Assembly: GCA_947460875.1 (NCBI GenBank) | Contig: CANHGR010000016.1 | Location: 1 to 49,949, forward strand | Direction of reading: 5' to 3' | Length of the DNA: 49,949 nt | Source of the DNA: Sphingobacteriaceae bacterium | GTDB lineage: Bacteria; Bacteroidota; Bacteroidia; Sphingobacteriales; Sphingobacteriaceae | Shown: positions 6,750 through 49,379 of the stretch, piece after piece | Position numbering within the stretch: position 1 is the first letter of the stretch | Layout: each line of letters opens with the position of its first letter | Position numbers and translations under genes: made by a program | The notes under the pieces: generated by a model | Databases searched by the model: none | Seen by the model: only the letters and a program-made list of their open reading frames with translations | What the model was told of the DNA's origin: nothing

Positions 6750-8390
6750 ATGAAGATCGCGTTAGCACAACTTAACTATCATACCGGAAATTTCGAATCG
6801 AATACACAAAAAATTATCGATGCCATTGGTCATGCAAAGGGTAAAGGAGCGGAGTTGGTTGTATTCGCCGAACTGTCAGTATGCGGTTACCCGCCGAGAG
6901 ATTTTCTTGAATTTCCAGAGTTTATTGAACTGTGTGAATCGGCTGCAAAGCAAATTGCTGCGTATTGTATCGACGTGGCCTGCATCATCGGCTTGCCCTC
7001 TCCTAATCGTCGAGTTGAGGGAAAAGATCTTTTCAATTCTGCGTACTTTATTGAAAATGGAAAGATTAAATCGGTTGTCAATAAAGCCTTATTGCCCAAT
7101 TACGATGTTTTCGATGAATATCGTTATTTCGAACCCGCTACTAGATTTGAATGCATCGAATTTAAAGGATTTAAAATAGCACTTACCGTATGCGAAGATC
7201 TTTGGAATATCAATGATAATCCTTTGTACGTATTAAACCCGATGGATGTATTGATTGTACAGGAACCGGATTTGATGATTAACATCGCTGCATCACCTTT
7301 TTCATACTTGCATGATGATGCACGGATTAAAATTCTGAGCGATAACTGTCGCAAATATGATCTTCCCTTACTGTATGTAAATCAGGTTGGAGCGCAAACA
7401 GAGATCGTGTTCGACGGAGGGTCGCTCGCGTTCAATGCAAAAGGCGAGATTTTGGATGAAATGAAATATTTTGAGGAGGACATTCAAATTTATGAATTCA
7501 GTGGAGGGCAGATCATTGGTCGCGAGGTAGTAAGTCATCATACGCTTAGTGATCTTGAGCAGATTCATCATGCTCTAATTCTGGGTATTAAAGATTACTT
7601 CAACAAATCAGGCTTTAGCAAAGCAATCTTAGGATTATCCGGAGGGATCGACTCTGCGGTAGTTTGTGCTCTTGCCGCTGAAGCGCTTGGACCAGAAAAT
7701 GTGATGGCGGTATTAATGCCTTCCATTTATTCAACTGAGCACTCTGTTCAGGATGCACTGGATCTGGTTAATAATCTAAATTGTAAACATGAGATCATCG
7801 CTATCAAAGACGCAACTATCGCTTTTGACAAAATGATGGAGCCGGTTTTTAAAGATTTACCTTTTAATATTACCGAAGAAAATATACAAGCCAGATGCCG
7901 CGCTATAATTTTAATGGCAATGTCCAATAAATTCGGTTACATTTTATTAAATACCTCTAACAAGAGCGAATGCGCAGTTGGTTACGGTACCCTTTACGGG
8001 GATATGGCTGGCGCTATAGGTGTTTTAGGAGATGTTTATAAAACACAGGTTTACCAATTGGCTGATTATATTAATCGCGAACGCGAGATTATACCCTTAA
8101 ATAGTATCATCAAGCCACCTTCTGCTGAATTAAGGCCGGGGCAGAAGGATTCCGACTCATTGCCTGAATATAATATTCTGGATAAAATACTATTTGAATA
8201 TATAGAACAGAAAAAGAGCTCCAGAGACATTATTGCGAGTGGCTTTGATGAAGCCACCGTTCGTCGGATATTGAAAATGGTGAATGTTGCAGAATTTAAA
8301 CGATATCAAACTCCACCAATATTGAGAGTTTCACCAAAAGCATTTGGTATGGGAAGAAGAATGCCTATCGTTGGGAAGTATTTGTCTTGA
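6750..8390 (+). CDS. nadE: Glutamine-dependent NAD+ synthetase
   Basis: This enzyme makes NAD+ from nicotinate adenine dinucleotide, ATP and glutamine, the last step of NAD synthesis. An N-terminal nitrilase-type glutaminase domain carries the Glu-Lys-Cys triad (E41 in FAELSVCGYP, K112 in NKALLPNYD, C148 in LTVCEDLW). The C-terminal synthetase domain carries the PP-loop SGGIDS at residues 297-302. The 546 residues fit the two-domain form. It is divergent from gldB and converges with lnt, with two bases between their stops. Confidence 0.96.
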   Translation: MKIALAQLNYHTGNFESNTQKIIDAIGHAKGKGAELVVFAELSVCGYPPRDFLEFPEFIELCESAAKQIAAYCIDVACIIGLPSPNRRVEGKDLFNSAYFIENGKIKSVVNKALLPNYDVFDEYRYFEPATRFECIEFKGFKIALTVCEDLWNINDNPLYVLNPMDVLIVQEPDLMINIAASPFSYLHDDARIKILSDNCRKYDLPLLYVNQVGAQTEIVFDGGSLAFNAKGEILDEMKYFEEDIQIYEFSGGQIIGREVVSHHTLSDLEQIHHALILGIKDYFNKSGFSKAILGLSGGIDSAVVCALAAEALGPENVMAVLMPSIYSTEHSVQDALDLVNNLNCKHEIIAIKDATIAFDKMMEPVFKDLPFNITEENIQARCRAIILMAMSNKFGYILLNTSNKSECAVGYGTLYGDMAGAIGVLGDVYKTQVYQLADYINREREIIPLNSIIKPPSAELRPGQKDSDSLPEYNILDKILFEYIEQKKSSRDIIASGFDEATVRRILKMVNVAEFKRYQTPPILRVSPKAFGMGRRMPIVGKYLS

Positions 8391-8392
8391 GT

Positions 8393-10003
8393 TTAGTCTT
8401 TTCTTTTTACTGCGCCTGTGATTAGCAAGATTAACAGAATACCAGCTCCTCCGGTTCCTGCGAAAGCAATGAAATCGCCATTATTAACGTAGAAAGTTAA
8501 ATCTTCATTCAAATTAATGTCTTCTTTTATAGCGGCAGGAACCCACCAAGAAGTGCTTTTTACCAGGTCCCCACGCTGATTAATAAACGCCGAAATGCCT
8601 GTGTTCGCTGATCTCGCAACCCAACGTCGGGTTTCTATTGCGCGTAGTTTCGCGTAAAGCATGTGTTGGTCCTTGCCTGATGTATTCCCCCACCAGCCGT
8701 CGTTTGTGACAATCGCAATAAATTGCGATCCCTTTTTTACACTTTCTGCGATGTATGCTCCCCATATCGATTCATAACAAATTGCAGGAGTGACACCAAT
8801 ACCGCTTTGCGAATAAAATACTCCTGCCTCCTCCTGACTGCCGAACCCACCCGAAGATCCACCAAAACTTTCAAATATCGGTTTCAAGAAAGTTAGTAGC
8901 GTTGGAAAAGGTAATTTTTCAACGCCCGGCACCAATCTAGATTTATGATAGAACTGAACTTTTGAAGAGTTCTCTATTTGTACTGCAGAATTAAAATAAT
9001 CAAAGTATTTCCCTACTTCTTTCTTAAAAGTTGCTGTCGGCGTTTTTGGCGCAGGGTATAAAAGGTAGCTGGAAATTCCAGAGATGACATTACCGTTTTT
9101 GTATTGATTCAAAAAGTCGTGAACTTGTATGTAGTTGACATTTGACCTTATTTTTTCTTCATCTACATAGTCGGGCAGTCCGGTTTCTGGCCAAATAAAA
9201 TATTCTGTATTAGGTTGAGCAACAGATTCAGATAATGTTATAAGCTGTTGAACTTGCATGAAAGAAGGGCTGTTCCATTTCAAGTAAGGATCAATATTCG
9301 GCTGGACAACTACCACATTGGCCGGATTCAATTTTTCCTGGTAATTGGTATAAATGGTAAGAGAACAGATTATTGGGGATGCGATGACGACGCTCGTAGC
9401 TATAATCAGTTTATTCTTGTCTGCTGATGAAGATTTAACACTTTTATATAATTCGAAAACAAGGATATTAGATATAAGAATCCAAAGCGTGCCTCCATAA
9501 ACGCCGGTAAATTCATACCATTGAACTAACTGATGCGTCGATGCGAAGGCATTGCCTAATGTCATCCACGGGAAGGCAAGATCCCAAGACTGGTGTAGAA
9601 ATTCATATGCTATCCATAAGCAAATTAGGGCTGTGTATGACCAAGGCTTTGAAGAAACCCGGCGGAATCTATAGTACAACCAAAAAACGAAGGCCATCAG
9701 CAGGGATCCCAGTCCGAAAGGGATTAATGAAATAAATGAGGCGATCCAAACGGGTAGTCCGGCGCTGGTAAAGGAATTAAACACCCAATAGATACAGGAG
9801 GTGTTCCAAACCAAAAAAGTTAAGAAGCTCAACCAAAATATCTTTCCACCTTTTCGTTGCGCACTGAAATCCATTATTGTCTCGAGCGCGATTAAAAGTG
9901 GAACAAAGCCTATCAGAACTAAAGGAGCAGTAAATGGTATGGGCGGCCAAGCTAACCAGAGGATAAATGCACTTGAGAGAGCTAGAAAAATGTTCTTTTT
10001 CAA
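8393..10003 (-). CDS. lnt: Apolipoprotein N-acyltransferase
   Basis: Lnt adds the third acyl chain to lipoproteins at the periplasmic face of the inner membrane. The 536-residue protein has an N-terminal bundle of hydrophobic helices, then a carbon-nitrogen hydrolase domain. The catalytic Glu is in FIWPETGLPDY, the Lys in YHKSRLVPGVE and the Cys in AICYESIWG. One more C-terminal helix anchors it (FAGTGGAGILLILLITGA). It is the last gene of the minus-strand group rsmI, PH-SHOCT protein, lnt; its ATG lies one base after the preceding stop codon. Confidence 0.94.
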   Translation of the reverse strand: MKKNIFLALSSAFILWLAWPPIPFTAPLVLIGFVPLLIALETIMDFSAQRKGGKIFWLSFLTFLVWNTSCIYWVFNSFTSAGLPVWIASFISLIPFGLGSLLMAFVFWLYYRFRRVSSKPWSYTALICLWIAYEFLHQSWDLAFPWMTLGNAFASTHQLVQWYEFTGVYGGTLWILISNILVFELYKSVKSSSADKNKLIIATSVVIASPIICSLTIYTNYQEKLNPANVVVVQPNIDPYLKWNSPSFMQVQQLITLSESVAQPNTEYFIWPETGLPDYVDEEKIRSNVNYIQVHDFLNQYKNGNVISGISSYLLYPAPKTPTATFKKEVGKYFDYFNSAVQIENSSKVQFYHKSRLVPGVEKLPFPTLLTFLKPIFESFGGSSGGFGSQEEAGVFYSQSGIGVTPAICYESIWGAYIAESVKKGSQFIAIVTNDGWWGNTSGKDQHMLYAKLRAIETRRWVARSANTGISAFINQRGDLVKSTSWWVPAAIKEDINLNEDLTFYVNNGDFIAFAGTGGAGILLILLITGAVKRKD

Positions 10004-44563: not shown

Positions 44564-46111
44564 ATGTCCGATAGGAAATTTATCACCACCTCAGGTATCA
44601 ACGTACTCGAAGTATATTCTAAACAGAAGGATATCTCAGAATTGCCCGGCGAGTTTCCCTTTACCCGAGGTATTCAAAAGGACATGTATAGAGGCAAACT
44701 ATGGACGATGAGGCAATACGCCGGTTTTTCTACCCCTGAAGAATCTAACAAGCGGTATCATTATCTTTTGCAACAAGGCACAACCGGACTGTCAGTTGCA
44801 TTCGACCTGCCCACGCAGATCGGTTACGACTCTAATCATGCACTTGCGGAAGGCGAAGTAGGTAAGGTTGGAGTGCCGATCGATTCGTTGCGTGATATGG
44901 AAATATTATTTAATGGTATTACGCTACAGTCTATAACCACTTCAATGACGATCAATGCCACTGCAGCGATCCTGATGGCTATGTATATTGCGGTGGCTAA
45001 AAAGCAGGGGGCAGATATTAAAGAGATTTCCGGAACAGTGCAAAATGATATTCTTAAAGAGTATGCAGCTAGAGGTACTTATATCTTTCCTCCGAAGCCC
45101 TCGATGCGCTTAATTAATGACCTTTTTGAATATTGCTCTAAAGAAACGCCGAAATGGAATACAATTTCTGTTTCCGGATACCATATCCGCGAAGCCGGCT
45201 CTACAGCCGTGCAGGAACTTGCATTCACATTATCTAATGGTAAGGCATATTTGAAGGCCGCGATTGAAAAGGGACTGGATATCAATTTATTTGGTAAGCG
45301 GGTTTCATTTTTTTTTAACTGTCACAATAACTTTTTTGAAGAGATCGCTAAGTTCAGGGCGGCACGGCGTATGTGGGCTCAGATAACCAAAGAGCTAGGG
45401 GCAACTGATCCGGCGGCTCAGAAGCTTCGTTTCCATACGCAAACCGGAGGATCTACCCTAACTGCGCAGCAGCCACTTAACAATATCATACGCGTAACTA
45501 ACCAAGCTTTAGCAGCAGTACTCGGAGGAACTCAGTCCCTTCATACCAATGGTTTTGATGAAGCATTATCATTACCGGGAGAGGCCGCGGCAAAAATTGC
45601 CTTGCGCACCCAACAGATCATCGCTTTTGAATCCGGAGTGCCAGACACTGCCGACCCATTGGCCGGTTCCTTCTTCGTTGAAGCCCTAACCGATCAAGTT
45701 GAAGCTGCCGCTTGGGAGTATATAGAAAAAATTGATGCGATGGGAGGCGCTGTTAGTGCTATCGAATCGGGTTATATGCAACAAGAAATTGCTAACTCAT
45801 CTTTTGAATATCAACTTGAAGTTGAAAATGGAGATAGAATCATTGTTGGAGTAAACAGTTATACAGATACCGAAAGTATTGATCCTGATCTTCTTCGAGT
45901 TGACGACTCAATAAGAATCCTGCAAATGAACAAATTAGCGAAGGTTAAGGCAGATCGAAATCATGCTGACGTAATATTGAAGCTCGAAAATTTACGACTT
46001 GCTGCTCAAGGCGACGCTAATTTAATGCCACTTATTCTCGAATCTGTGGAAGCCTATGCAACTGTAGGTGAAATCTCAGATTCATTACGAACCGTTTTCG
46101 GCGAATACTAG
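44564..46111 (+). CDS. Methylmalonyl-CoA mutase catalytic subunit without B12 domain
   Basis: The 515 residues match the TIM-barrel catalytic half of B12-dependent acyl-CoA mutases ([31 protein letters not shown]). Aligning by spacing to the P. shermanii enzyme, Y52, R170 and H207 correspond to Tyr89, Arg207 and His244, including identical distances (118 and 37). Isobutyryl- and 2-hydroxyisobutyryl-CoA mutases differ at the first two, so methylmalonyl/succinyl-CoA is the likely substrate. The cobalamin-binding domain with DxHxxG is absent from the C-terminus and from this window, so a separate small subunit is needed. It starts after a strong Shine-Dalgarno sequence. Confidence 0.87.
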
Positions 46112-46401
46112 ATGATCGTTACTTCGCCAAATGAACGAAAAATGTGCTTTTCGTGTATTTGTTTTGTTTTAAGTTGCAATTAACTTAATGTTAAATGCAA
46201 GAAAACTTTACAACAAAATTAATGGAATATTAACTCAAAAATTTAATATTAACTATTTGAATATCAAATAGTTAATATTAATGTTAAAAAATAGTAGATT
46301 TTAGTTTTTTTAATAAAAAAAAAGTCGAATATTCGATGTATCAAAAGGTGCTCTCGAATTCTTGCACCATAGGCTGAAAATCAGATTATTAGAAAAAGCG
46401 G
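46112..46401 (+). other. AT-rich intergenic region upstream of dnaA, candidate origin or dnaA control region
   Basis: These 290 bases hold no gene. They are very AT-rich, with a long perfect inverted repeat at 46243-46281, a 12-bp palindrome TCGAATATTCGA at 46325-46336, repeats of TAATATTAA, and two copies of TTAATGTTAAA near 46188 and 46276. I looked for DnaA boxes (TTATCCACA and close variants) and found none convincing, so an origin role is only a possibility. dnaA control sequences are the alternative. Confidence 0.5.
46243..46281. repeat. 18-bp perfect inverted repeat upstream of dnaA
   Basis: TTAATATTAACTATTTGA (46243-46260) and TCAAATAGTTAATATTAA (46264-46281) are exact reverse complements separated by ATA. 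The arms are almost pure AT. No T tract or nearby upstream gene end suggests a terminator: the mutase stop is 131 bases away. A protein-binding site or cruciform-prone unwinding element fits better. Confidence 0.85.
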
Positions 46402-47829
46402 ATGGAAAAAACCAGTACCAGTGTGTGGAATAATTGTCTCCAGATCATAAAGGATAACATTCCTACTCAGAGCTTCAAAACATGGTTCGAGCCGATCAAA
46501 GCATTACGGTTGGAGGGCAATATTTTAACCATACAGGTGCCGAGTCTATTCTTTTACGAATGGCTTGAAGAACATTATGTGGGCCTGTTGCGCAAGACGG
46601 TCAAGAAGCAGTTAGGCGAGGATGGACGCCTCGAATATAATATAGTTGTAGAAAAATCTTCGAATAGCACACCATTTACAACTAATATGCCTTCAAACGG
46701 AAATGGAGCCGAAGGGAAGAATCAATCCATGCCGATGCCAGTATCCCTTAACAAGGATATCAAGAACCCATTTGTAATCCCGGGATTGAAGAAATTGCAG
46801 GTTGATCCACAGCTTAATGCCAATTATAGCTTTGAGACTTTTATTGAAGGGGATTGCAACCGCTTAGCTCGTTCTGCCGGATATGCCGTCGCAGGTAAGC
46901 CGGGTGGCACTTCATTTAATCCTTTGATGATTTATGGAGGTGTTGGTCTTGGAAAGACTCACTTAGCTCAAGCAATAGGTAATGAGGTTAAACGAACCTT
47001 ACCCGATAAACTTGTTTTATATGTTTCTTGCGAAAAATTTACGCAACAGTTTGTTGATGCTTTGAAAAACAACAATATCAATGATTTTGTGAACTTTTAT
47101 CAGGCAATGGATGTTCTGATCATGGATGATGTTCATAATTTCGCGGGTAAAGAAAAGACTCAAGATATTTTCTTCCATATTTTCAATCATTTGCATCAGG
47201 CGGGAAAGCAATTGATTATTACTTCGGACAAAGCTCCAAAAGACCTTTCAGGCTTGGAAGAGCGTCTGCTTAGTCGCTTTAAATGGGGACTATCAGCGGA
47301 TCTGCAGATTCCAGATCTTGAAACTAGGATGGCGATCCTTAACAAAAAGATGTATACAGATGGAATTGAATTGCCATCCGAAGTAATTGAATATGTTGCC
47401 CATAATATCGACAATAATGTGCGCGAACTTGAAGGCGCAATGATTTCTTTGTTGGCACAGTCTACTCTAAATAAAAAGGAAATCGACCTGAATTTGGCTA
47501 AATCCATGCTGAAGAATTTTATTAAAAATTCTTCGAAAGAAATATCAATGGAATACATCCAGAAACTCGTTTGCGAATATTTCGAAGTTCCTATTGAAAT
47601 GGTGAAATCAAAAACCCGAAAGCGCGAGATTGTTCAGGCAAGACAAATTTCGATGTACCTTTCTAAAAGCCATACAAAAACCTCGCTTAAATCTATCGGA
47701 GCCTTTTTTGGAGGACGCGATCATTCAACCGTTATCTACGCTTGCCAGACTGTAGAAGACCTTATTGATACCGATAAAAAATTCAAGGCATACGTAGCAG
47801 ATATTCAAAAGAAGCTTAAAATGAGCTAG
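46402..47829 (+). CDS. dnaA: Chromosomal replication initiator DnaA
   Basis: DnaA binds and opens the replication origin. The 475-residue protein shows domain I (VWNNCLQIIKDNIPTQSFKT), a short linker (about residues 90-125), and the AAA+ domain. The Walker A motif is GGVGLGKT (179-186) and Walker B ends in LIMDDVH (Asp242-Asp243). Domain IV has the DNA-binding signature GGRDHSTVIYACQTVEDL (Arg439 to Thr443 core). It stands alone with its own terminator. dnaN and other origin-linked genes are not next to it, as is common in Bacteroidetes. Confidence 0.97.
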   Translation: MEKTSTSVWNNCLQIIKDNIPTQSFKTWFEPIKALRLEGNILTIQVPSLFFYEWLEEHYVGLLRKTVKKQLGEDGRLEYNIVVEKSSNSTPFTTNMPSNGNGAEGKNQSMPMPVSLNKDIKNPFVIPGLKKLQVDPQLNANYSFETFIEGDCNRLARSAGYAVAGKPGGTSFNPLMIYGGVGLGKTHLAQAIGNEVKRTLPDKLVLYVSCEKFTQQFVDALKNNNINDFVNFYQAMDVLIMDDVHNFAGKEKTQDIFFHIFNHLHQAGKQLIITSDKAPKDLSGLEERLLSRFKWGLSADLQIPDLETRMAILNKKMYTDGIELPSEVIEYVAHNIDNNVRELEGAMISLLAQSTLNKKEIDLNLAKSMLKNFIKNSSKEISMEYIQKLVCEYFEVPIEMVKSKTRKREIVQARQISMYLSKSHTKTSLKSIGAFFGGRDHSTVIYACQTVEDLIDTDKKFKAYVADIQKKLKMS

Positions 47830-47848
47830 AAATACATTTCTCTACTAG

Positions 47849-47890
47849 AAAACCCCTTTCGGATACCACTTCGACAGGGGTTTTTGATTT
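47849..47890 (+). terminator. Intrinsic terminator after dnaA
   Basis: AAAACCCCT (47849-47857) pairs with AGGGGTTTT (47876-47884) around an 18-base loop, followed by further T residues (TTTTTGATTTT). It starts 20 bases after the dnaA stop. Confidence 0.82.
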
Positions 47891-47972
47891 TAGCGGGTTT
47901 CGTTTTTTGGTTGTACCTAAATTTTTATTTTTTTAGCAAAAAATTGCAACATAGCAATTCGCGTTGCGTCTA

Positions 47973-48827
47973 TTATATAGTAAGCTTAGAAATTTGGAAG
48001 ACGTTTATGTAGATCAACACTATACACTGGTTGTTGAGTACAAAGAAAGGCAGACGGGGCATATCTTGAACTTTACAGGCTTTATTCTAAGGCAATATAA
48101 CCCGTGGCTTCCGTATTCTAAATGACCAAGATAAAGCGGTAGATAACGTTGATGGTACTGAATCAAAACAGGGAAATTTGGTCAGTTTTGAGATCGCTTT
48201 TGACACTCTTAATCCCGGCAATTGGTGCCTGTCGGGACGCAAAATAAGAGAGTTAAGTTACGCAGTCTAACTGCCAGCTGGTAATTCTTTAGCAATAAAG
48301 AACAGTTATGGAAACATTGCGTTACCGGATTTCCGAGGTATTACGGATATAGAGGGGGCATCTAGCAATCCTACAACAGGCATTCTATCAAATGCGATTA
48401 AAAATATCTGAGTAAAATTTGGCTCAGTTATTATAAATTAGGCCTTGTTAATGCAGGTAAGCTCGAGGCTAGGCTATAAAGCTACTTACCTCTAAAGATT
48501 GAAAGAATTCCGGGCGATACAAACCTCACGCTGAAATACGCCGGAGAATTTAGAATCGGAAAAGTAGAGGCATCCGTCAAAAAAGTAAATATAGATTCAC
48601 AGTATTCGAGTATTTCTCTTGCTTTTGATCCTGCTTCAAATTTCTTCTTTGATGTAAGCGGGTCATACCTGTCTTTCAATTATAATAAAGACAGATTGAG
48701 TTTAAGTTCAAGCGAAACCTCAGATTAGTAGGCAAAAAATTACGTCGGTAGATATGGTAGATATGGAAAGTGATCCGATTCTCAGGTAACTATAAAGTCT
48801 ACTTGCAGTTCAGTAAAGTTCTTGTAG
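47973..48827 (+). pseudogene. Decayed DUF4097-like/adhesin-type beta-repeat protein gene
   Basis: About 855 bases without an intact frame, but coding sense can be followed through three frames. Segment A (to TGA 48123) reads VYVDQHYTLVVEYKERQ. Segment B (about 48091-48441) reads ILNDQDKAVDNVDGTESKQG, later GRKIRELSYAV, stop, LPAGNSLAIKNSYGNIALPD. Segment C (48447-48827) reads VNAGKLEARL, stop, SYLPLKIERIPGDTNLTLKY, later SQYSSISLAF and, after two stops, AKNYVGRYG. Stops include TAA 48268, TGA 48409, TAG 48439, TAA 48477, TAG 48726, TAG 48729 and TGA 48771. The pattern of YGNI/LKY/SQYSSI strands matches secreted beta-solenoid-like DUF4097 proteins of Sphingobacteria. The N-terminus and signal peptide are not recognisable. 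It directly abuts the NUDIX gene. Confidence 0.8.
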
Positions 48828-49379
48828 TCAATTAACTGAACCCAATTTTATCAATGCATAAAAAATTGCGCTGGCATGAAGTGCCTGCTGAAATTTATTT
48901 TCAAGGAGCATCTCTTTGAGGTGGTCCATACTTATTAGTTCAACCTCAATTTCCTCTCTACCGTCAAGATGTTGTTCTTGTACTTTTTTTCCACCGGTCG
49001 CTAAATAACACCACGTCTTATTATTTCCAGTCGATGGATTGGCATATAAATTAGCCATCAATTCAATTTTATCGAATTGATAGCCAGTTTCTTCAAGCAA
49101 TTCTCTTTCGATCGCCTGCGCTGGCGTCTCACCCGGATCAATACATCCCCCCGGAATCTCTGTAATAACTTCAGCCACGGCGTGCCGGTATTGCCTGATG
49201 ATAATAACCTTCGTGTCTTCCGTAATTGCAACCGCATTTACCCAGTCAGGGTATTCTAATACATAGTAATCCGGTATTTCTGTGCCGTTAGGCATCCGAC
49301 AGGTATCAACCCGCAGAGTAGCCCACTTTTCTTGAACTAAATATTTAGTTGAAAGACGTTTCCAGTTCAGCTTACTCAT
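48828..49379 (-). CDS. NUDIX hydrolase
   Basis: The 183-residue protein has a complete Nudix box at residues 78-100: GCIDPGETPAQAIERELLEE followed by TGY, fitting Gx5Ex7REUxEExGU. The N-terminal part and the conserved IRQYRHAVAEVITEIPGG resemble ADP-ribose pyrophosphatases (NudF type), so a nucleoside diphosphate sugar is the likely substrate (inference). Its ATG lies eight bases inside the end of the upstream gene, which suggests coupled translation. Its stop is directly beside the end of the decayed gene. Confidence 0.9.
   Translation of the reverse strand: MSKLNWKRLSTKYLVQEKWATLRVDTCRMPNGTEIPDYYVLEYPDWVNAVAITEDTKVIIIRQYRHAVAEVITEIPGGCIDPGETPAQAIERELLEETGYQFDKIELMANLYANPSTGNNKTWCYLATGGKKVQEQHLDGREEIEVELISMDHLKEMLLENKFQQALHASAIFYALIKLGSVN

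Follow-up and report, generated by a model that had tools for sequence, protein, structure and literature searches.

A probable dnaA promoter and leader, with a private palindrome, in a Sphingobacteriaceae region suspected of being a replication origin

In Escherichia coli the promoter of dnaA is repressed by its own product, with a DnaA box lying between the promoters dnaAp1 and dnaAp2, and DnaA regulates dnaA both there and in some other bacteria, according to an excerpt of PMC8203912. Excerpts from work on the Bacteroidetes describe a -7 box, TAnnTTTG, which in Flavobacterium psychrophilum occupies positions -12 to -5 (PMC9723704) and in Bacteroides has the same form (PMC7366714), and they report for Flavobacterium johnsoniae a link between low structure near the start codon and better translation (PMC6847099). 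Little is known about how the level of DnaA is controlled outside model bacteria; a leader hairpin that recurs in most of a family, taken together with the pattern of DnaA boxes, is a candidate that can be tested.

We analyzed the intergenic gap at 46112-46401 of a contig from a Sphingobacteriaceae bacterium. The window, meaning the whole stretch of DNA that was analyzed, is the entire contig of 49,949 bases, which belongs to a draft genome of 2.21 Mb in 26 contigs and ends 2.1 kb past dnaA. This genome is the sole representative of its genus in the genomes searched, and its nearest named relatives by DnaA belong to Daejeonella (95% identical) and also to Pedobacter, Mucilaginibacter and Sphingobacterium. 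A methylmalonyl-CoA mutase gene, whose stop codon immediately precedes 46112, lies on the 5' side of the gap and dnaA on the 3' side. The 290 bases between them have a GC content of 24.8%, compared with 39.8% for the whole window. The locus is most likely an ordinary dnaA promoter with a leader, which had been suspected of being an origin; to the whole explanation, in which these 290 intergenic bases close off the mutase gene and hold the promoter and leader of dnaA, we assign a probability of roughly 65%. What is distinctive about the locus is a hairpin zone in the leader that recurs in the family and has no Rfam match, and a 39-bp palindrome found in this genome only. The features are as follows.

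44564-46111, plus strand: methylmalonyl-CoA mutase gene (Pfam PF01642)
46135-46160, plus strand: possible 3' end signal of the mutase gene, ACGAAAA-atgtgc-TTTTCGT and then a T-rich stretch (weak; read from the sequence)
46243-46281, no strand assigned: perfect inverted repeat TTAATATTAACTATTTGA-ATA-TCAAATAGTTAATATTAA, with 18-bp arms and a 3-base centre (direct reading and script)
46283-46311, plus strand: upstream part of the promoter, putatively the -33 region, with GTTAA at 46283-46287 and TTTAGTTTTTTT at 46300-46311 (aligned in 65 family members)
46328-46335, plus strand: AATATTCG, putative -7 box and core of TCGAATATTCGA (pattern enrichment and position)
46340-46401, plus strand: predicted 5' untranslated leader of the dnaA mRNA, about 62 nt (placed from the -7 box)
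46347-46368, plus strand: predicted hairpin of GGTGC (46347-46351) and GCACC (46364-46368) with a 12-nt loop (folding)
46374-46393, plus strand: conserved block CTGAAAATCAGATTATTAGA between the hairpin and the start codon (alignments)
46402-47829, plus strand: dnaA, 475 aa (Pfam Bac_DnaA, Bac_DnaA_C and DnaA_N)

At the 5' end of the gap, the stretch at 46135-46160 folded no better than shuffled sequence (50 of 200 shuffles were as good), and a terminator scan of 45900-46500 returned zero sites. On the other side of dnaA, the roughly 1 kb at 47830-48830 holds no gene-length frame on the plus strand, the longest running 82 aa from stop to stop; several adjacent short frames there may be what is left of a decayed gene.

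The last 110 or so bases before dnaA are conserved in both place and sequence in most of the family genomes that we searched. The 65 upstream regions in our alignment share, with variations, GTTAAnAnTAnTTTnAAAnTTTAGTTTTTTAAT, a T-tract and GAATATTCGATGTTCC, followed by a variable stretch of near-constant length and then by TTGTAAATCAGATTATTAG and the start codon. This alignment omits L012 and L014 (93 bases only), L063 (dnaA at the contig start) and L074, as well as L033, which equals L004, and the duplicates L009 and L036. Alignment A4 has 63 rows (without L072 and L073), and A2 and A3, with 34 and 14 sequences, were grouped visually; AAATCA and TTA show no variation across A2 and are less constant in A4.

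At E <= 2.2e-4, a leader model built on sequence only from 63 of these regions (R1) placed the leader next to dnaA in 87 of the 101 family genomes, and at least 27 of those 87 had contributed sequences to the model. By coordinates, 84 of the 89 matches abut dnaA. In G100 the match is at one end of a contig on which dnaA begins at base 1, and those in G063 and G082 are probably contig-end cases of the same kind. Apparent second copies in G029 and G058 were rejected, since both are at contig ends and the G029 sequence runs into the start of dnaA. The 14 genomes with no R1 match at this threshold include members of the genera g5, g8 and g11, together with G008 (partial dnaA) and G068 (no dnaA found). 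When 149 genomes from across the class were searched, using filters that lose weak matches, matches below 5e-4 appeared only in the 5 family members among them.

Rfam gave a best E of 0.74 for 46000-46500, which is under the gathering score, and in 10 relative loci no leader reached that score. The one Rfam match in those loci was a TPP riboswitch close to the dnaA of Parapedobacter defluvii (L058:5198-5294, minus strand). Pedo-repair (RF01715), known to us from an excerpt of PMC2864571, was not among the Rfam matches, and we found no description of this dnaA leader among the literature matches listed.

Upstream of the leader, the family carries a strongly positioned motif. With a few duplicates included, related species counted separately and the pattern picked after inspection, 58 of 68 family loci have [AC]ATNTTCG at -120 to -40, and in 55 of these it stands at -77 to -73 (mean of shuffles 1.5, maximum 5). 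The copy in the source genome, AATATTCG, stands at the conserved position and has 6 of the 8 letters of TAnnTTTG. If the -12 to -5 rule is applied to it, transcription would start near 46340 and the leader would be about 62 nt long; TAGTTTTT, at 46302-46309, could conceivably serve as the -7 box instead. Outside the family, where the set comprised 31 of 37 loci (L076-L112; the others were omitted because their upstream region was short or their start uncertain) and where the enriched patterns were picked after inspection with five tried, [AC]ATATTTG was present in 12 of 31 loci (shuffles 0.19, maximum 2), and three other -7 patterns were present in 9, 8 and 16 (shuffle means 1.6, 3.0 and 6.2). 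The strict TAnnTTTG showed no enrichment in the same loci (3 of 31; shuffles 2.1). Elsewhere in the source genome, TTTTNNGAATATTCG had 20 matches with up to one mismatch, compared with 14 for a reversed control, which is uninformative.

The sequence-only reading had listed TCGAATATTCGA as a second palindrome. It is indeed present at 46325-46336, as a single copy in the window, but it is more plausibly the -7 box with its flanks, because relatives retain AATATTCG and often lack the symmetry.

Immediately downstream of the putative -7 box, the segment 46336-46372 has a folding energy of -7.9 kcal/mol, with a z of -2.4 and 3 of 200 shuffles folding equally well, and the hairpin within it coincides with the hairpin zone of the relatives. 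The complete 62-nt leader of the source genome folded no better than shuffles (43 of 200; z -0.7). On average, the self-complementary zone runs from about -68 to -26 relative to the start codon, and its sequence is unconserved. We measured the pairing with a swap test on 45 members, those left of 63 after dropping any with at least 75% identity in the variable segment: their own halves gave -8.0 kcal/mol, and swapped halves -5.6 ± 0.33 (0 of 20,000 permutations). With the 3' half shuffled within each species the value was -5.58 (0 of 300), with the 3' half reversed it was -5.70, and the swap effect was gone. The effect peaks at offsets of -70 to -64 and vanishes by -56; among seven upstream control blocks, two deviated, at -230 by 2.1 sd and at -150 by 2.7 sd. 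The 65 dnaA leaders have a mean z of -1.14, with 57% below -1, compared with -0.36 and 26% for 167 other leaders, all drawn from loci of 6 kb or more. Related species were counted separately in this comparison, and its p-value is to be read with caution since the sequences are related. Beyond the family the trend is weak, with the best offset at -84 (-4.6 vs -3.8 ± 0.36).

An aligned, covarying RNA helix was considered and rejected. RNAalifold returned no consensus structure and no pairs on 34, 14 or 63 sequences, and double compensatory changes over 27 disjoint pairs showed no excess (8 vs 5.3 expected; 172 of 2000 reach that count), with 80 of 244 paired cells broken in the comparison. Across the family, the hairpin appears to be kept in place with its stem re-made. 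Such a combination fits a structural role, in protecting the 5' end or in spacing, better than it fits recognition of a set sequence.

The perfect inverted repeat with 18-bp arms and a 3-base centre had been noticed before, and it is present at 46243-46281 exactly as claimed; so are the repeated elements TAATATTAA (46244 and 46273, each within the palindrome) and TTAATGTTAAA (46185 and 46278). Among inverted repeats with loops of up to 12 bases it is the longest in the window, and the runner-up, at 1621-1662, is a perfect 15 bp with a 12-base loop. The palindrome exceeds chance: when the 290 bases were shuffled 1000 times with dinucleotides preserved, no arm exceeded 12, a length seen in 3 of the shuffles. 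Its conservation before dnaA in relatives, which the sequence-only reading had proposed as a check, was not borne out, as only 1 of 301 family genomes has it and that one is its own; the 300 others lack it. Within the source genome the palindrome and its core each occur once with up to three mismatches allowed, and on this single copy a repeat-family or regulon reading was rejected. At the other loci, no inverted-repeat arm longer than 13 (loops of up to 10) was found in the 500 bases immediately preceding dnaA. As far as we have searched, then, the palindrome is a lineage-specific element. Its 3' edge lies 59 bp before the predicted transcription start. Folded as RNA it has an energy of -17.1 kcal/mol (z -7.2), and we rejected it as an intrinsic terminator, there being no T-run after 46281 on the plus strand and no site in the terminator scan.

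Recognizable DnaA boxes are common before dnaA in the family. Counting related species separately over the 65 regions of the upstream alignment, TTATNNACA occurs 82 times in 44 of them (shuffles: mean 6.8, maximum 13), with recurring positions at -188/-175, -91, -54 and -17 from the start codon. Inverted pairs of boxes lie upstream of dnaA in L049, L050, L052, L060, L073 and others. For example, two Pedobacter loci have perfect inverted pairs about 150-185 bases before dnaA, TGTGGATAA-G-TTATCCACA in L060 and TGTTGATAA-CCCATAC-TTATCAACA in L073, and L049 and L052 share the pair TGTTAATAA-ATAG-TTATTAACA. Boxes in or near the promoter, as expected of a promoter regulated by DnaA itself, are thus found in 44 of the 65 family regions; the source genome is one of the 21 that have none. 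As a side observation, Pedobacter cryoconitis Xaverov 94 (JAAAFW) has two dnaA loci, L064 and L074, 86% and 79% identical to the query; they are on two large contigs, which points to a mixed assembly or to a second dnaA.

In the source genome, the earlier view that no clear DnaA boxes are present holds: the 290 bases contain zero copies of TTATCCACA with 0-1 mismatch. With up to one mismatch allowed, the box derived from the family, TTAT[CTA][CA]ACA, has 2 sites within 300 bases of the dnaA start on its 5' side, where 1.7 are expected (248 of 500 shuffles reach this), so that degenerate DnaA sites were rejected at chance level. By the same two measures, the DnaA-box cluster of an oriC was not found in the 290 bases. 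What does stand out is TATTAAC/GTTAATA, with 3 sites in the 300 bases before dnaA vs 0.14 expected (0 of 1000 shuffles), although 2 of the 3 lie within the palindrome and are therefore non-independent. These sites have 7 of the 9 letters of the relatives' box TTATTAACA and lack the final A of the DnaA box. L046 also has TATTAAC followed by GTTAATA, with a gap of 6 bp where the source genome has 17, a difference of about one helical turn. Over its last 105 residues, DnaA differs from that of seven relatives at 4-10 positions, none of them within GGRDHSTVIYAC, the DnaA signature, which we take to be the part that contacts DNA. Most of those seven relatives have ordinary DnaA boxes.

A further check on the suspected origin is GC skew. 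Because the source genome is a draft in 26 contigs and this contig ends 2.1 kb after dnaA, the skew was measured in relatives. In the window itself, skew is mostly positive, including most of the 40 kb preceding dnaA, with dips at 15-18, 25-31 and 42-45 kb; the last of these sits just before the mutase gene, and skew is positive again around dnaA. The single-contig relative G028 belongs to a more distant genus (DnaA 79%, no leader match at E <= 2.2e-4) and has dnaA at 1,046 kb. In its sampled skew, the change from negative to positive falls between 0.24 and 0.44 Mb and the change back near 2 Mb, and the cumulative minimum of the first stretch was fine-mapped to 285-320 kb, about 0.73 Mb from dnaA. 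Without a shuffle control, we count 7 boxes TTAT[CT][CA]ACA in 315.5-321.2 kb of G028, of 31 in 240 kb. In the second single-contig relative, G100 (DnaA 89%, leader present, dnaA at the first base), the switch in sampled skew falls between 0.32 and 0.58 Mb, and two stretches, at 2.54 and 5.06 Mb, have an odd sign. In G005, a closer relative in draft form, skew is too weak for a verdict.

Several observations go with these genomes. The box-dense gap of G028 is flanked by divergent frames that we take to be nadB and nadA; this AT-rich gap, at about 317.07-317.58 kb of contig 1 (L181:17073-17576), lies at the skew minimum and is a candidate origin of G028. The skew switch is thus near nadB-nadA in one of the two single-contig relatives. 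Before the dnaA of G028 (L119, G028:C1:1030001-1050000), a TTATC[CA]ACA site, counted on either strand, starts 104 bases upstream, and there is no leader match. The source genome has a nadB-nadA homologue on contig C15, with an AT-rich gap of 396 bp (8170-8565) that contains TTATTAACA and with noisy local skew; direct pairs of TTATCMACA within 30 bases were not found anywhere in this genome.

These data bear on four readings that compete with ours in whole or in part. The 290 bases could be the place where chromosome replication starts, or the unwinding element of that origin, with unusual DnaA sites, as had been proposed. They are AT-rich and adjoin dnaA, they carry the excess of TATTAAC/GTTAATA sites, and the skew of the window goes from negative to positive close to dnaA; similar dips, however, occur at two other places in the window, the DnaA signature is identical in the seven relatives compared, and the palindrome is in none of the other 300 genomes. 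An origin at dnaA was rejected on the skew of G028 and G100, where the switch is distant from dnaA in both, a result measured in relatives of a draft genome. An origin that works here through unusual DnaA sites is unlikely, and the broader proposal, with the unwinding element included, we regard as having very little chance of being right. A palindrome-rich AT region beside dnaA should not be equated with an origin. A different objection concerns the leader: the conserved 110 bases might be a protein-binding site at the level of DNA, the hairpin signal being DNA symmetry and not RNA structure. The near-constant spacing of the two conserved blocks would suit such a site, as would the failure to find a consensus RNA helix, but DNA operators usually conserve sequence, and here it is the paired stretches that vary between species and the self-complementarity that stays. 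We consider this reading improbable.

The other two readings concern the palindrome, and we rate them equally, each as a tentative possibility that falls somewhat short of even odds. The palindrome may be the operator of a dedicated dnaA regulator, a dimer or tetramer, or a lineage-specific, degenerate pair of DnaA sites; alternatively, it is a recent neutral copying error (an inverted duplication) or the 3'-end hairpin of the upstream transcript, with no role for dnaA. Perfect two-fold symmetry across 39 bp, a position 59 bp ahead of the predicted transcription start, the inverted DnaA-box pairs before dnaA in some relatives, and the TATTAAC and GTTAATA of L046 argue for an operator. Its single genomic copy, so that no regulon is seen, and its absence from the 300 other family genomes argue against one, and for degenerate boxes in particular the last A is absent and near-matches are no commoner than in shuffles. 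Restriction to one genome and arms free of mismatches are what a young, neutral duplication would show, but long repeats without a mismatch are generally unstable if nothing maintains them. A 3'-end hairpin would be strong if transcribed, as its folding energy indicates, but the plus strand has no T-run and the terminator scan was empty.

The ordinary promoter and leader remain our preferred explanation. In the mechanism that we propose, the housekeeping sigma factor would read AATATTCG at 46328-46335 as the -7 box, and transcription of dnaA would begin at about 46340. Lying near the mRNA 5' end, the leader hairpin would act through its structure; in the simplest case it would shield the 5' end from decay or keep the start region open. 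In the relatives, DnaA would repress its own promoter. The 39-bp palindrome, lineage-specific and probably young, stands just upstream of the promoter, and if it is functional it would be a two-fold symmetric protein site that tunes dnaA, replacing the inverted DnaA-box pairs of some relatives. A bolder version, to which we give only a slim chance, is that an undescribed dnaA leader found throughout the Sphingobacteriaceae, with a 5' hairpin of freely drifting sequence between two conserved flanking blocks, sets the level of the initiator, and that in this species a new operator, the 39-bp palindrome, serves another protein and replaces a lost feedback through DnaA boxes.

Compared with known systems, the leader resembles the cis-regulatory families of Rfam in lying 5' of a housekeeping gene and differs from them in having no match at the gathering score. 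It is like the stabilizing 5'-terminal stem-loops of the ompA, papA and aprE leaders in that a hairpin stands at or near the predicted 5' end and in that structure recurs and sequence does not; unlike them, the family dnaA leader has strongly conserved flanks, and a stabilizing effect here is putative. The self-repressed dnaA promoter of E. coli is paralleled by the relatives, in which boxes are strongly enriched before dnaA (44 of 65), whereas the source genome is boxless and its putative promoter would be of the Bacteroidetes type. With respect to that type, the family has TTCG in place of TTTG (58 of 68), AATATTCG agrees at 6 of 8 letters and there is no clear -33 TTTG, but AATATTCG stands at a near-fixed distance and resembles the [AC]ATATTTG found before dnaA in 12 of 31 loci outside the family.
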